From Nitrosarchaeum sp. (GTDB lineage Archaea; Thermoproteota; Nitrososphaeria; Nitrososphaerales; Nitrosopumilaceae): a DNA stretch of 36,347 bases. The notes under the pieces were generated by a model that saw only the letters and a program-made list of their open reading frames with translations, was not told the origin of the DNA and made no database searches. The position numbers were made by a program, and so were the translations under genes. Below are positions 7,956-36,347 of this stretch, one piece after another. Position 1 is the first letter of the stretch. Each line of letters opens with the position of its first letter. The stretch is from the NCBI GenBank assembly GCA_023265135.1, contig JAHFUM010000011.1:1-36347 (forward strand), in the 5' to 3' direction.

Positions 7956-8022
7956 AATAGATCATATGTGTGATAGTATTTCCGTCTTTAGTTTTTTAAT
8001 GATCTTAAAATTAAAAATTAAT

Positions 8023-8568
8023 TTATTTTTTTTTTAGTTGTAAAGTATTTTGAACCTCATGAAAACTGTTGATAAATTTTTGTTTTGCTTCAAATTCATC
8101 TTTTACAGCGATTACTATTTCAGTTGGAGACAACATTACATCTTTTACAACAAGCGGTGAGCTAAGACCCAATATTTCACATAAAATGTCAAAAACATTT
8201 TTGAACTTTGCACCGTTTCTGTATTTGTAAACTGTATTTCCATCCACTATCTTTGGATTTCCATCAAGAGGAATGATTAAATTTGGAGAACTCAGTTCGG
8301 CGATAAAAGTATCAGTATCTTTGCTAATAGTGGCTCTAAGGTCTGTCTTTGTTCTTTCCAGCTGCTCTTTTGCCTTTTCAAGATCAGCAAGTTTATCGTC
8401 ATAACCAACACCGATCATTTTTGCAAATGTGGATTCAGTCGTTCGTTTTAGAGGAATCTCACGCAGTTGTATATTGACTTCAGATAGAGAGTCTTCCACA
8501 TCGTACAGTTTTGACCTACTTTCTTTGATTTGAATTGCAAGATTTTCAAGAAAGTCAAAATCAGACAT
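8023..8568 (-). CDS. Coiled-coil protein encoded directly after artubulin (181 aa)
   Basis: I recognise no named family. Residues about 8-100 are strongly helical with heptad-like spacing and many Leu/Lys/Glu (LADLEKAKEQLERTKTDLRA), predicting a coiled coil. Residues about 105-181 look like a small alpha/beta domain (KYRNGAKFKNVFDILCEIL, then strands TEIVIAVKDEFEA). There is no signal peptide or membrane segment, so it is cytosolic. Its ATG lies 4 bases after the artubulin stop on the same strand, so the two are almost certainly co-transcribed. By inference it is a partner, regulator or crosslinker of the tubulin filament. That role is not demonstrated. Confidence 0.8.
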   Translation of the reverse strand: MSDFDFLENLAIQIKESRSKLYDVEDSLSEVNIQLREIPLKRTTESTFAKMIGVGYDDKLADLEKAKEQLERTKTDLRATISKDTDTFIAELSSPNLIIPLDGNPKIVDGNTVYKYRNGAKFKNVFDILCEILGLSSPLVVKDVMLSPTEIVIAVKDEFEAKQKFINSFHEVQNTLQLKKK

Positions 8569-8572
8569 ATCT

Positions 8573-9958
8573 TTAGCTGAATTGGTGGATTACATCCATT
8601 AGACCCTGTTTAAATTCTTCAGTTGAAAGTCCCCATCGCCCATATTCGTCTTTATAGCCATCCCATGCCTCTTCAGCCTCTTTTGCGATTTCTAGAATTT
8701 TGGGTCCGATTGCCTTTGTATTTACAAGAACAGCGATACTTGCTTGTTCTCCTTCCATTATAGGAATTTTTACAAATATCATTCTAGATTCTTCAATGTT
8801 AAATTTGTCTTTGATGGTTCTTTTAATTGCCTCTCTTTCTTTGATGTCAAATTCTCCTTTCACTTTAACTAAAACACAGCAGGAATCACGAGAACTGCCA
8901 TTGTTTCTTATATCATTTTCATCAATATCAAAAAGTAATGCATCTTCTTTCTTACCTAATTTATTTAACACATCTTCCATGGTATTGTTTTTCGTTGATG
9001 TAAGCATGTCTTTACCCCATTGATTTTCAGCTGGACTAACAGGCATAATCCAAGGAATAGCAAATTTTGGTTTTTTCGTTGCAAGCCATGTACGATAATT
9101 AGACATGTCCCATTCAGTCTCTCGTGCAAATGACGAGATAAACATCGAAATAGTATTTGCAGCTATCAAGTTCATTCCCTTGTAATCTTTCCATCCTACT
9201 TCATGTTCTTTTGGAAGATCATCTATAATTGAAGGAATTTTTTGTAGCTTCTTTTCGTGTTGATGCGCTAGTTGTCTTAATGATTTATTGGAAATTAAAA
9301 CAGAACAGTCACTGTATTTGATTTGGTATTCCAAATTCATTACGATGTTAATTGCTGCTGCTTCAAAAATTACTGGGTCCCATCCAAACTCTGGAAGTAA
9401 TCCAAAAGTTGCAACAGTCGCATGTTCTTTTGAAACATTTTTTATATATTCAATAAATGCACTTGAAAACGAACTTCCTGTTCCACCTGCCAAGCCAAAC
9501 GGAATCACGTATCCTCTTACAGGTTCTGGAGAAATAGCAGCCAGTTGTTTTTTAATATCGATTTTTGTCCTCATTTCTTCTAAAAATCGTGTTTTTCCTT
9601 CTGCCCAATTTCTAGCAGCCCCTCCTGCACCGTGAATCACATGTTGATCACGTAAAGCAAAGAGATCAGGATATGATTGTAAAATAAGATTGGCAGCTCG
9701 TGGGTCAAGATCAACTAACAGTGCTCTTGGAATAAGTGGAATGTTTGCCGAACCATAAGTAGGGGCAAATCTCAAAATGGTACTGCCGTATCTTTTTAGC
9801 ACACGAGATTCATCTTTTGGGTTAAGTGATGGTTTTAGCGGATCTGCTCCAACATCTAGCAGTAATCTACGATAGGTTTCAGCCCCCAAACCAATTCCAC
9901 AGTGACCAAAACAGATCATAAGTACGGGTGCCGGTGGAAGAGGAGCTAATTTTGACAT
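8573..9958 (-). CDS. Artubulin: archaeal tubulin-family GTPase
   Basis: This is a filament-forming GTPase of the tubulin/FtsZ superfamily, 461 aa, the length of tubulin rather than FtsZ. By-eye alignment to eukaryotic tubulin is co-linear: T1 loop GHCGIGLG (18-25, tubulin GQCGNQIG), LVDLDP (81-86, LVDLEP), GAARNWAEG (113-121, GAGNNWAKG), T4 LAGGTGSS (156-163, LGGGTGSG), VIFEAAAINIVMNLEY and SDCSVLISN (about 196-224), T7 region EWDMSNYRTW (about 282-291, NVDLTEFQTN) and CCVLVKVKG (CCLLYRGD). The T7 catalytic acid position appears to be Asn287. A TTTATTAA about 30 bases upstream could be its own promoter. It sits between a CdvB paralogue and a coiled-coil gene. It is not the cell's FtsZ. Confidence 0.9.
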   Translation of the reverse strand: MSKLAPLPPAPVLMICFGHCGIGLGAETYRRLLLDVGADPLKPSLNPKDESRVLKRYGSTILRFAPTYGSANIPLIPRALLVDLDPRAANLILQSYPDLFALRDQHVIHGAGGAARNWAEGKTRFLEEMRTKIDIKKQLAAISPEPVRGYVIPFGLAGGTGSSFSSAFIEYIKNVSKEHATVATFGLLPEFGWDPVIFEAAAINIVMNLEYQIKYSDCSVLISNKSLRQLAHQHEKKLQKIPSIIDDLPKEHEVGWKDYKGMNLIAANTISMFISSFARETEWDMSNYRTWLATKKPKFAIPWIMPVSPAENQWGKDMLTSTKNNTMEDVLNKLGKKEDALLFDIDENDIRNNGSSRDSCCVLVKVKGEFDIKEREAIKRTIKDKFNIEESRMIFVKIPIMEGEQASIAVLVNTKAIGPKILEIAKEAEEAWDGYKDEYGRWGLSTEEFKQGLMDVIHQFS

Positions 9959-10060
9959 GATAATACTTTACGTAATTGCCTACTCATTAATAAAATAGTA
10001 GATTAAATCATTCCAGATATATCGTATTTTGGACTTGAAATAGAATCTATAGAGGGATTG

Positions 10061-10684
10061 TTATTCTAATCCAATGGAACTTGATGAAGAAATTCCTGTT
10101 GGAGTTGAGGGGAATTTATCACCGATACGAGTTCCTGCTACTGCTGCAGCCTCTTTGAGTATGTTCTCAGTTTCCTCATTAGAGACACTGTCAGATTCAA
10201 AGCTTCCTTCAAATGAACCGGATATGGATTCATTGAGAATTCCAAACAATGATTCGAATTCATGACTTACTTCAGGCATGATTCTTCCCAAAGCTGGTTT
10301 TAATGCATTCATAGTTGCAAGGATTGGTCGTAGTGAAACCATCGCATCACCCAAATCTTGAACGGTTGATAATCTAAGGTTAACTTGTTCTAATGAAAGT
10401 TTCAATGTTGTTAGAACTTTTTTATTTTTTCTCAATTCCACTAGTTCGTTTGCGAGAATTTTCCCAGTGGTTAAATCATGATTCTTTTTTGCTAAGACAA
10501 TTCTGTTAAATAATTTTGCATCTTTTTCATCTAAACTTTTTACTTTGTAATCAAGTGAAGATACAGTTTTAGTTAATTGTGTAAGAGAACTTTGAATTCT
10601 TGGTTTTAGAGGTGCTTCTTTTTTTAATCCATGTAAATGGTCTGAGATTCCTTTTGATTGTGGATTATTCCAGTTCTGTTGCAT
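10061..10684 (-). CDS. cdvB: ESCRT-III-like cell division protein, CdvB paralogue
   Basis: This Snf7-type protein polymerises on membranes in archaeal division and scission. From the ATG at 10684 it is 207 aa: a basic N-terminus with KPRIQSSLTQLTKTVSSL (27-44), a long helical hairpin (45-110, with ELVELRKNKKVLTTLKLSLE), the conserved LKPALGRIMPEVSHEFESL (128-146), a Ser-rich linker, and a C-terminal helix ENILKEAAAVAGTRIGDKFP typical of CdvB proteins. A longer frame reaches 10801, but its extra 39 residues lack family features and would overlap the divergent dCMP deaminase start. It lies 102 bases upstream of artubulin on the same strand. Several CdvB paralogues are normal in this lineage; which one this is I cannot say. 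Confidence 0.85.
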   Translation of the reverse strand: MQQNWNNPQSKGISDHLHGLKKEAPLKPRIQSSLTQLTKTVSSLDYKVKSLDEKDAKLFNRIVLAKKNHDLTTGKILANELVELRKNKKVLTTLKLSLEQVNLRLSTVQDLGDAMVSLRPILATMNALKPALGRIMPEVSHEFESLFGILNESISGSFEGSFESDSVSNEETENILKEAAAVAGTRIGDKFPSTPTGISSSSSIGLE

Positions 10685-33940: not shown

Positions 33941-36347
33941 CTAAATGTCAAATGGCTGTGTGTATGGAGCCTTCCAGAATGCAGAGTTGTATCCTTGAAT
34001 TCCAGTCTGTGTGTTCAAGTAGTTTCCAGCATCAGTAAATGCAGCGTTTGCAATTGCTACTGCTCCTGCCTTGTTGGCAGAGGAATTTACAAATCCTGAT
34101 GGGAATGGTGATAGGTCGCCACTGTTGTTAAATCCGTCCAGTAATCCTGCAATTCTGATTACTTCAGCTCTGTTTGCAGCATTGTTTACACTAACATTGA
34201 GAGCATTGCCTGCTGCAGTTCCTACTGGTGCACTGCACGTAGCTGGATCAATTATATTATTTGCTGGGTGGAGTGGATCAGTTCCTGGTGTAGAACCAAA
34301 TGCTCTGCAGTTAAGTTCTGCAGCCATTAATTGCTGCATTAATTGCATCTTTGCTTGGGATAGGCTATCTCTTGCAACACTGTTTGAGTCCTTTGAAATG
34401 CTAGACCAGAATGCTCCAAATACGGTTGGAAGATCATCAATTAGTTTGCCACTTGTAGTACCGCCTACAGTCAATACATTACTGCCTGTAATTCCATAGT
34501 TAGTGCCAGTACCAGTATGCAATACAGATCTTACTTGATCTGGATGTGTACTCCAGTAACCCAGTGTTCTAGTTGGGGCAACAGGAATATTGGTAAATGT
34601 GCATTGGACGTTTTGTTGTCCGGCAACTGTAAATGTTGCAGTGGCTCCGTTATATGATGGATTTGCACCAGTACCTTCACATACGATTGATTTTAGTTTC
34701 CAGCCTGATAGAGGTTGTTCAGTAACATGATATGTGCCTATTTGAACAGGATCCCAGTCTTTCTGGTCTCTATGATCTCCTCCAACATCATTTAGTGTGT
34801 TAAGAGTAAAGCCGGCTGGGGTTGGTAAATCGGATGTAAATGTGAATGTTCCATCACCGCCACCTTCTGTAACCTTTACAATTGTAACAGTTCCAGTTAG
34901 AGGCAATACATCAACTGTAGCAGTAGCATCGTCAGTGATATTATTTGTAAATTCTAATGGGTGATAGTGTACAGTTACCACATTAACTATTGGGCTATTT
35001 AGCATGTCATTGTGGGTTGTAATATAATCAACATCAAATGTGCAGGAATCCCCTACTGCTAATTCGTCACATGCAGCTGGTGCGTCTGCTTCCAGGTTAC
35101 CTAGTTTATCATCATCAATAGAGTCCATGATAAGGTTTGGTGAGTCAGATGAACCGGTGTTGGTTATCACATAGGTATACGTTACAGTGTCCCCTTCTAG
35201 AACACTAGTAGGATCAGCTGTCTTTGTCACTTCTACTGCTGGTTGGAATAGTTCAGTACTCTCAGAGTCATCATCTGTGATATCATTTGGAAATCCTAAT
35301 GGGTTATAGTGGACAGTTACGGTGCTATCCAGTGGGTCTGGATCTCCTACTTGAACTGTGTAATCAACATTAAATGTACAGAAGTCACCTGGAGCCAAAT
35401 TGTCACATCCAGCATTTGTTGCAGCAGTCATTAGATCACCTTGTAAAGTATCATCTATACTGGCCAAGATAAGGTTTGGAGAGTCAGATGAACCGGTGTT
35501 GGTTATTGTAAATTTGTAAGTTGCAACATCTGTGGCTTTGGATAGTGCAGGACCTTCCTTTACTATTTCAACTGATGGTTGGAATAGGTTAGTTTCATGG
35601 GAATCATCGTCGGTGATGTCATTTGTAAATCCATCTGGGTGATAGTGTACAGTTACGGTGTTTATCAATGGGTCATCATCACCTGCTTGAACGGTATAAT
35701 CAACATCAAATGTGCATGAATCTCCTACTGCTATATCGTCACATGTAGCTGGTGCGTCTGCCTCTAGGTTGCCAATTACATCATCATTAATAGAATCCAT
35801 GATGAGGTTTGGTGAGTCAGATGAACCGGTGTTAGTTATTGTAAATGTGTAAGTTGCAACATCGCCTACTTTGGATAGTTCAGGACCTTCTTTTGTCACT
35901 GTAACTTCTGGTTGGAATAGGTTAGTTTCATGGGAATCATCGTCGGTGATGTCATTTGTAAATCCATCTGGGTGATAGTGTACAGTTACGGTGTTTATCA
36001 ATGGATCATCATCACCTGCTTGAACGGTATAATCAACATCAAATGTGCATGAATCACCTGGTGCTATAGAAGAACATTCAGCTGGTGCATAAATTTCTAA
36101 GTTGCCAATTATACTATCATCAATAGAGTTCATGATGAGGTTTGGTGAGTCATCAGAGCCGGTGTTTTCAATTGTAAATGTGTAAGTTGCAACATCACCT
36201 ACTTTGGATAGTTCAGGACCTTCTTTTGTCACTGTAACTTCTGGTTGGAATAGGTTAGTTTCATGGGAATCATCGTCGGTGATGTCATTTGTAAATCCAT
36301 CTGGGTGATAGTGTACAGTTACGGTGTTTATCAATGGATCATCATCA
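33941..36347 (-). CDS. Repetitive DUF11-like surface protein, 5' end cut by the window
   Basis: The frame is open to the last base, so the N-terminus and signal peptide are outside. The visible part, about 800 aa, has one partial and four complete repeats of 111-112 aa with VTVTKEGPELSKVGDVATYT, ITNTGSSDSPNLIMDSI, a Cys pair, DVDYTVQAGDDDP and VTVHYHPDGF. These are DUF11/CARDB-like beta-sandwiches. A prealbumin/SpaA-like domain (GTVTIVKVTEGGGDGTFTF) follows, then a C-terminal part beginning RTLGYWSTHPDQ. The repeats are acidic and carry DDDS runs that could bind calcium. It is likely a stalk or adhesin in the envelope. It is convergent with the subtilase, 32 bases away. Confidence 0.85.
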   Translation of the reverse strand, partial: DDDPLINTVTVHYHPDGFTNDITDDDSHETNLFQPEVTVTKEGPELSKVGDVATYTFTIENTGSDDSPNLIMNSIDDSIIGNLEIYAPAECSSIAPGDSCTFDVDYTVQAGDDDPLINTVTVHYHPDGFTNDITDDDSHETNLFQPEVTVTKEGPELSKVGDVATYTFTITNTGSSDSPNLIMDSINDDVIGNLEADAPATCDDIAVGDSCTFDVDYTVQAGDDDPLINTVTVHYHPDGFTNDITDDDSHETNLFQPSVEIVKEGPALSKATDVATYKFTITNTGSSDSPNLILASIDDTLQGDLMTAATNAGCDNLAPGDFCTFNVDYTVQVGDPDPLDSTVTVHYNPLGFPNDITDDDSESTELFQPAVEVTKTADPTSVLEGDTVTYTYVITNTGSSDSPNLIMDSIDDDKLGNLEADAPAACDELAVGDSCTFDVDYITTHNDMLNSPIVNVVTVHYHPLEFTNNITDDATATVDVLPLTGTVTIVKVTEGGGDGTFTFTSDLPTPAGFTLNTLNDVGGDHRDQKDWDPVQIGTYHVTEQPLSGWKLKSIVCEGTGANPSYNGATATFTVAGQQNVQCTFTNIPVAPTRTLGYWSTHPDQVRSVLHTGTGTNYGITGSNVLTVGGTTSGKLIDDLPTVFGAFWSSISKDSNSVARDSLSQAKMQLMQQLMAAELNCRAFGSTPGTDPLHPANNIIDPATCSAPVGTAAGNALNVSVNNAANRAEVIRIAGLLDGFNNSGDLSPFPSGFVNSSANKAGAVAIANAAFTDAGNYLNTQTGIQGYNSAFWKAPYTQPFDI
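34905..36347 (-). repeat. Tandem 333/336-bp coding repeats
   Basis: The marker GGTTGGAATAG (plus strand) recurs at 35241, 35577, 35910 and 36243, giving periods of 336, 333 and 333 bases. Long stretches of the last three copies are nearly identical at the DNA level, for example GTGATAGTGTACAGTTACGG. The copy nearest the 3' end of the gene is more diverged. The array continues past the window edge. Confidence 0.85.

Follow-up and report, generated by a model that had tools for sequence, protein, structure and literature searches.

Comparison of gene neighbourhoods across genomes shows that artubulin, a tubulin-family GTPase, is obligately paired with the gene of a coiled-coil protein (CC) and is lost together with it, and that the CdvB (ESCRT-III) paralogue encoded beside the two genes in Nitrosarchaeum is kept without a need for artubulin. 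Because the pairing with CC is universal, CdvB is local to one genus and persists alone, and CC decays without artubulin, we regard a two-gene artubulin-CC operon as the most likely functional unit, in which CC would probably be a dedicated partner that binds filaments or subunits and CdvB a separate resident. Gene adjacency as such is linkage, not contact.

Pairing of artubulin with a coiled-coil protein gene

The window, that is, the whole stretch of 36,347 nucleotides analysed here (Nitrosarchaeum sp., contig JAHFUM010000011.1), carries the following features of the locus.

10061-10684, minus strand: CdvB paralogue (207 aa)
9983-10003, minus strand: conserved promoter-like block, consensus TTCTACTCTCTTATTAATGAG, diverged in the window (from 11 Nitrosarchaeum loci)
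8573-9958, minus strand: artubulin gene, tubulin-family GTPase of 461 aa (PF00091 match)
9470-9490, minus strand: tubulin T4 signature, AGGTGSS in the window copy (alignment of 15 artubulins)
9086-9124, minus strand: predicted T7 loop with the beginning of helix H8, RETEWDMSNYRTW (register from the secondary structure of the model)
8023-8568, minus strand: artubulin-associated coiled-coil protein gene (CC), 181 aa
8293-8559, minus strand: CC residues 4-92, predicted hairpin of two long antiparallel helices, a short helix lying between them (AlphaFold2)
8026-8292, minus strand: CC residues 93-181, predicted small alpha/beta domain with a long helix at its end (AlphaFold2)

Read along the minus strand, the genes follow one another as CdvB paralogue (10684 to 10061), artubulin (9958 to 8573) and CC (8568 to 8023), separated by 102 bases (9959-10060) and 4 bases (8569-8572); the coordinates, strand, order and gaps that an earlier note on this DNA had given for them were all exact on re-reading. 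The open frame of CdvB extends to 10801, but orthologues start at the ATG at 10684. This three-gene order recurs at 11 loci in 10 Nitrosarchaeum genomes and its artubulin-CC part at every examined locus with room for it, which places the order above chance. Besides these genes, the assembly has three further Snf7 protein genes and a separate gene of FtsZ type. Elsewhere in the window, the minus-strand frame at 33941-36334 encodes a long protein that contains several near-identical repeats (VTVHYHPDGFTNDITDDDSHETNLFQPEVTVTKEGPELS...) and is probably a surface protein built of repeats.

From contigs of one genome per species, we gathered 80 artubulin loci, together with as much as 10 kb of flanking DNA. 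Because RETEWDM and ANLILQSY served as the peptide patterns of the contig scan, this set is biased towards motif-bearing copies, a bias that does not affect the genome profile scans, in which these patterns played no part. CC was found directly downstream of artubulin and on the same strand at all 75 loci with room, mostly across gaps of 2-18 bases, the remaining five of the 80 being contig ends. These loci sample Nitrosarchaeum, Nitrosotenuis, Nitrosotalea and deeper Nitrososphaeria, whose artubulins are 51-56% identical to that of the window. Independently, when 400 genomes of the class were scanned with profiles, artubulin was detected in 86, every one of which (86/86) also has CC. G241, initially a candidate exception with artubulin and CC on different contigs, was dismissed as a contig break, both genes lying at contig ends; G273 and G380 have CC without artubulin, but with CC at a contig edge. 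Pairwise identities of artubulin and of CC are correlated with r = 0.976 over 2,775 pairs, which shows co-inheritance of the two genes without partner swapping.

Within ~4 kb of artubulin, CC is the sole family common to all lineages, the other genes forming lineage-specific blocks. Loci within each genus share flanking genes and hence are not independent observations, as would be expected if the adjacency were inherited synteny devoid of functional meaning. From one lineage to another, however, every neighbour but CC is replaced, and CC remains within a few bases even where artubulin identity falls to 51-56%; CC also decays once artubulin is lost, so that we consider a mere relic of synteny very improbable.

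This decay was read from the DNA of genomes without artubulin. At the empty sites of Nitrosarchaeum, the segment corresponding to window positions 7969-10058, that is, CC and artubulin together, is missing by DNA comparison while CdvB is intact, and the flanks align on both sides where the contig reaches far enough. In one of these genomes (G009), CC is left as two fragments, which indicates that the pair was lost there and not that it had never been acquired. Remnants outside the genus, namely a CC fragment inside conserved synteny (G130) and a CC with in-frame stops and a frameshift (G048), likewise point to loss. In the genomes compared, CC is thus a gene that decays where artubulin is lost.

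A few loci deserve separate mention. One genome, 97% complete (G038), has two complete artubulin-CC pairs (L015 and L019); identity between the copies is 85% and 62%, and they could be a system of two subunits or a mixture of strains. Two Nitrosopumilus-like genomes carry a 5'-truncated artubulin beside an intact CC (L157:9920-11255 and L209:3810-4883; the truncation was recorded for L157 and for G153), which counts against the reading of a dedicated pair. Although L157 is labelled Nitrosopumilus, the closest relatives of its pair are Nitrosarchaeum pairs, and it has no CdvB; this combination suggests transfer of the artubulin-CC pair. A record titled Gammaproteobacteria bacterium BBSC-SA02 (L098) contains a 76% identical artubulin and CC, and its title is probably wrong.

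The CdvB paralogue and the Nitrosarchaeum site

The CdvB paralogue matches the Snf7 domain with 33.3 bits (cut-off 27.3) and scores 143 bits, below the cut-off of 350, against the NCBIfam CdvB1/B2 equivalog NF041005. It is a Snf7-only paralogue, most similar, at 39-48% identity, to two of the other three CdvB genes in the genome that encodes it. By this indirect likeness, drawn through the CdvB genes of its own genome, it looks like the Nmar_0029/Nmar_0061 group of Nitrosopumilus paralogues and not like Nmar_0816, and it differs from Nmar_0029 and Nmar_0061 in being a further, genus-specific paralogue (PMC3684127).

CdvB of the window type (83-100% identical) is present in 16 searched Nitrosarchaeum genomes, including six that lack artubulin (G003, G004, G009, G010, G012 and G015). 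In these six, CdvB is found at the same site, next to a deaminase gene; since it is kept there without artubulin, it does not need artubulin. In a maximum-likelihood tree, the window-type copies make up one clade (support 98/98) on a long stem, within which the artubulin-less genomes fall in at least three places, with many inner branches weak. The CdvB paralogue belongs to a genus-specific clade and is a neighbour that probably stands outside the artubulin module. It adjoins artubulin at six of the 80 loci, all of them in Nitrosarchaeum, and no CdvB was found near artubulin outside this genus in flanks of up to 10 kb. Judged by gene order, the placement of CdvB beside artubulin proves to be a coincidence, local to a single genus.

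The gap between CdvB and artubulin ranges from 102 to over 200 bases in Nitrosarchaeum. The promoter-like block with consensus TTCTACTCTCTTATTAATGAG is recognisable there at 11 of 11 loci, and its distance to the start of artubulin changes fairly little. A wider regulon for this block was considered and rejected, as only the artubulin locus was retrieved in four of five genomes, with one further match of three mismatches in G000, at about the level of the reversed control. Being essentially confined to the artubulin locus, the block looks like the pair's own promoter.

The earlier note had proposed that artubulin, CC and the ESCRT-III paralogue form a three-gene module for division or membrane remodelling, and knew of no characterisation of the CdvB linkage. 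That linkage had in fact been described: the artubulin-Snf7/CdvB linkage and its reading as cooperation in division were published by Yutin and Koonin in 2012 (PMC3349469), and the Snf7 observation was repeated by Santana-Molina and co-workers (PMC9871819), who also noted coiled-coil neighbours of archaeal tubulin-like genes in general. The legend of Figure 2B in PMC3349469 names Snf7, dCMP deaminase, DNA polymerase, helicase, MFS and triosephosphate isomerase; all of these neighbours are recognisable in the window, and the artubulins of Nitrosoarchaeum limnia and N. koreensis treated there belong to the same protein family as that of the window. The genome paper of Nitrosotenuis uzonensis (2013, PMC3835317) records an artubulin that is not near Snf7.

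Support for the three-gene module comes from the same-strand adjacency at the 11 loci of 10 Nitrosarchaeum genomes, from the evidence for CdvB-based division in thaumarchaea (PMC3684127) and from the artubulin-Snf7 cooperation predicted in print. Its artubulin-CC part is supported, with the pair adjacent at 75 of 75 loci with room. The CdvB part is not, given its restriction to six of 80 loci in one genus, its retention at the same site in the six genomes without the pair, on at least three branches, and a promoter-like block that suggests separate transcription of CdvB and artubulin. The comparison of gene order, which the earlier note itself had named, together with separate transcripts, as able to refute the linkage, bears out the coiled-coil half and goes against the CdvB half, which was not found near artubulin beyond Nitrosarchaeum. 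On this balance we find a three-gene module distinctly unlikely. The analogy with the eukaryotic midbody rests in turn on a lineage-specific neighbourhood, because the CdvB adjacency is confined to Nitrosarchaeum and CdvB is kept without the pair.

New here is CC as the conserved partner of artubulin across the family, the CdvB linkage being already known. Whereas the partner proposed in PMC3349469 was Snf7, the neighbour conserved family-wide is CC, and the Snf7 linkage is restricted to a genus. The literature we searched, with few subscription journals, contained no account of CC as a conserved artubulin partner, and no demonstrated function or partner of artubulin.

Families and predicted folds of the two proteins

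Artubulin matches the Pfam tubulin family PF00091 at 4.5e-16 (60.1 bits, cut-off 33). In a profile search of solved structures, its best match was an Asgard alpha-like tubulin (8.3e-22), with gamma-tubulin at 1.6e-14. The AlphaFold2 model of artubulin, of moderate confidence (pLDDT 72.7, pTM 0.80), retrieved tubulins over its whole length with Foldseek, the best being AtubB of Asgard archaea (E 5.4e-19, TM 0.73/0.79). The artubulin profile at E 0.01 did not match the FtsZ-type proteins of the artubulin-comparison genomes. Artubulin is nearer to tubulins than to FtsZ. Set against the tubulin T4 signature GGGTGS(G/S), the loop reads GGGTGSS in most other artubulins of the alignment and AGGTGSS in the window copy.

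In the region predicted as the T7 loop, the stretch RETEWDMSN (residues 279-287) and residues 289-291 are invariant in 39 artubulins, with residue 288 nearly so, and RETEWDMSN is also invariant in 15 artubulins gathered without the motif as query. The catalytic acid of T7 is Glu254 in alpha-tubulin and an Asp in FtsZ. All 39 artubulins have Asn287 at the predicted position of the catalytic Glu, in a register inferred solely from the predicted order helix H7-loop-helix H8-strand. We relied on predicted secondary structure because alignment by hhalign of artubulin to FtsZ of the same genomes, with two FtsZ sequences only, gave nothing usable. If this register is right, artubulin would be devoid of the usual activating acid. 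Beta- and gamma-tubulin likewise do not have the T7 Glu, and Asn287 therefore does not exclude artubulin from the tubulins.

CC matched no Pfam or NCBIfam family, its sequence matches in searches being generic coiled coils, and by sequence it has no relative among solved structures. The AlphaFold2 model, computed from 41 sequences, is of high confidence (pLDDT 92.5, pTM 0.80) and places the helices of the hairpin at residues 4-37, 40-52 and 59-92, ahead of the alpha/beta domain. Foldseek returned no match of this model in the PDB at E <= 0.001.

Homologues of CC also occur without artubulin in two other families, f2 and f8. Full-length CC, unaccompanied by artubulin, is found in six genomes of family f2; in the two that we read, its neighbours are a radical SAM gene and an open frame of 93-98 aa, as at L194:7090-9070, where the CC homologue lies with the radical SAM gene on one side and, on the other, an open frame of 93 aa that has no known family. 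A short form, equivalent to about the last two thirds of CC, is present in 23 genomes of family f8, and the short forms make up a separate deep clade. Residues 93-181 are the part of CC best shared with these short homologues (profile matches ~55-181). In four of five genomes read, the short form, without the full N-terminal hairpin, is encoded between Emg1 and the RNase P subunit Rpp21 (L193:8142-8558, L196:8016-8429, L197:5315-5746 and L198:6954-7373). Because short CC homologues adjoin translation and RNase P genes, a relation of the C-terminal domain to KEOPS Pcc1 was considered; it was dropped for want of Pfam support. The CC family thus reaches beyond artubulin, and what its members basically do may be something other than binding tubulin. 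Outside the order, neither artubulin nor CC was found in a 398-genome sample of the phylum, and the one class-level match to CC (G074, 6e-4) is probably due to chance.

Proposed role of the pair

As reconstructed from these comparisons, artubulin followed by CC would be a two-gene operon, presumably read as a shared transcript, whose two genes have been passed on, duplicated and lost together and have probably also moved together. Judging by its family, artubulin would be a GTP-binding protein of tubulin fold that most likely forms protofilaments. The hairpin and the alpha/beta domain of CC would probably bind artubulin subunits or filaments and, if one is to guess at the precise activity, would stabilise, bundle or anchor them, much as Bklc does for bacterial tubulin BtubA/B. 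The CdvB paralogue would have occupied the site in Nitrosarchaeum for a long time and would serve its own function; any cooperation between it and artubulin would be an addition made in this genus only.

The best precedent is the bacterium Prosthecobacter, where the tubulin genes BtubA/BtubB occur with Bklc/BtubC, a protein that binds bacterial tubulin filaments and lipid vesicles (PMC5372463); in both cases, a prokaryotic tubulin would share an operon with a dedicated partner that is not a tubulin. The partners themselves are different, since Bklc is a TPR protein and CC, with no Pfam match to a TPR domain, is modelled as a helical hairpin plus an alpha/beta domain. Unlike the BtubA/BtubB pair, artubulin is a single subunit in most genomes. 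OdinTubulin is similar in being an archaeal tubulin flanked by coiled-coil genes, but those are genome-specific according to PMC9871819, whereas CC is kept over many genera and is not described there as a conserved partner.

The main rival to a filament- or subunit-binding CC is a folding or stability factor, chaperone-like, on which artubulin would depend for reaching its native state. Strict pairing, co-loss and the decay of CC after loss of artubulin fit this reading equally well, and eukaryotic tubulin depends on dedicated cofactors. The CC model, however, bears no likeness to a solved tubulin cofactor or any other chaperone (none in Foldseek at that same threshold), and CC relatives persist without artubulin in family f2, which together make such a role unlikely in our judgement. 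With CC taken as a binding partner, one may tentatively go further: CC could be the founder of a new tubulin-binding family, and artubulin, seemingly without the T7 catalytic acid in all copies, would not hydrolyse GTP in the usual way, so that the pair builds a stable or nucleating structure and not a dynamic microtubule. We hold this fuller scheme to be possible, if still rather doubtful; if true, the organisation of this tubulin system would differ from that of microtubules, FtsZ rings and the mini-microtubules of Btub.

Close relatives of the eukaryotic tubulin family, artubulins have been on record since 2012, and the one partner proposed for them, ESCRT-III, had been inferred from two genomes of one genus. 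With the conserved partner being a small, confidently folded protein of no known family, less weight falls on the link that has repeatedly been drawn between tubulin and ESCRT-III in the division of archaea. The pairing tells experimenters what to co-express with artubulin, and the role of tubulin in these ammonia oxidisers becomes directly testable.
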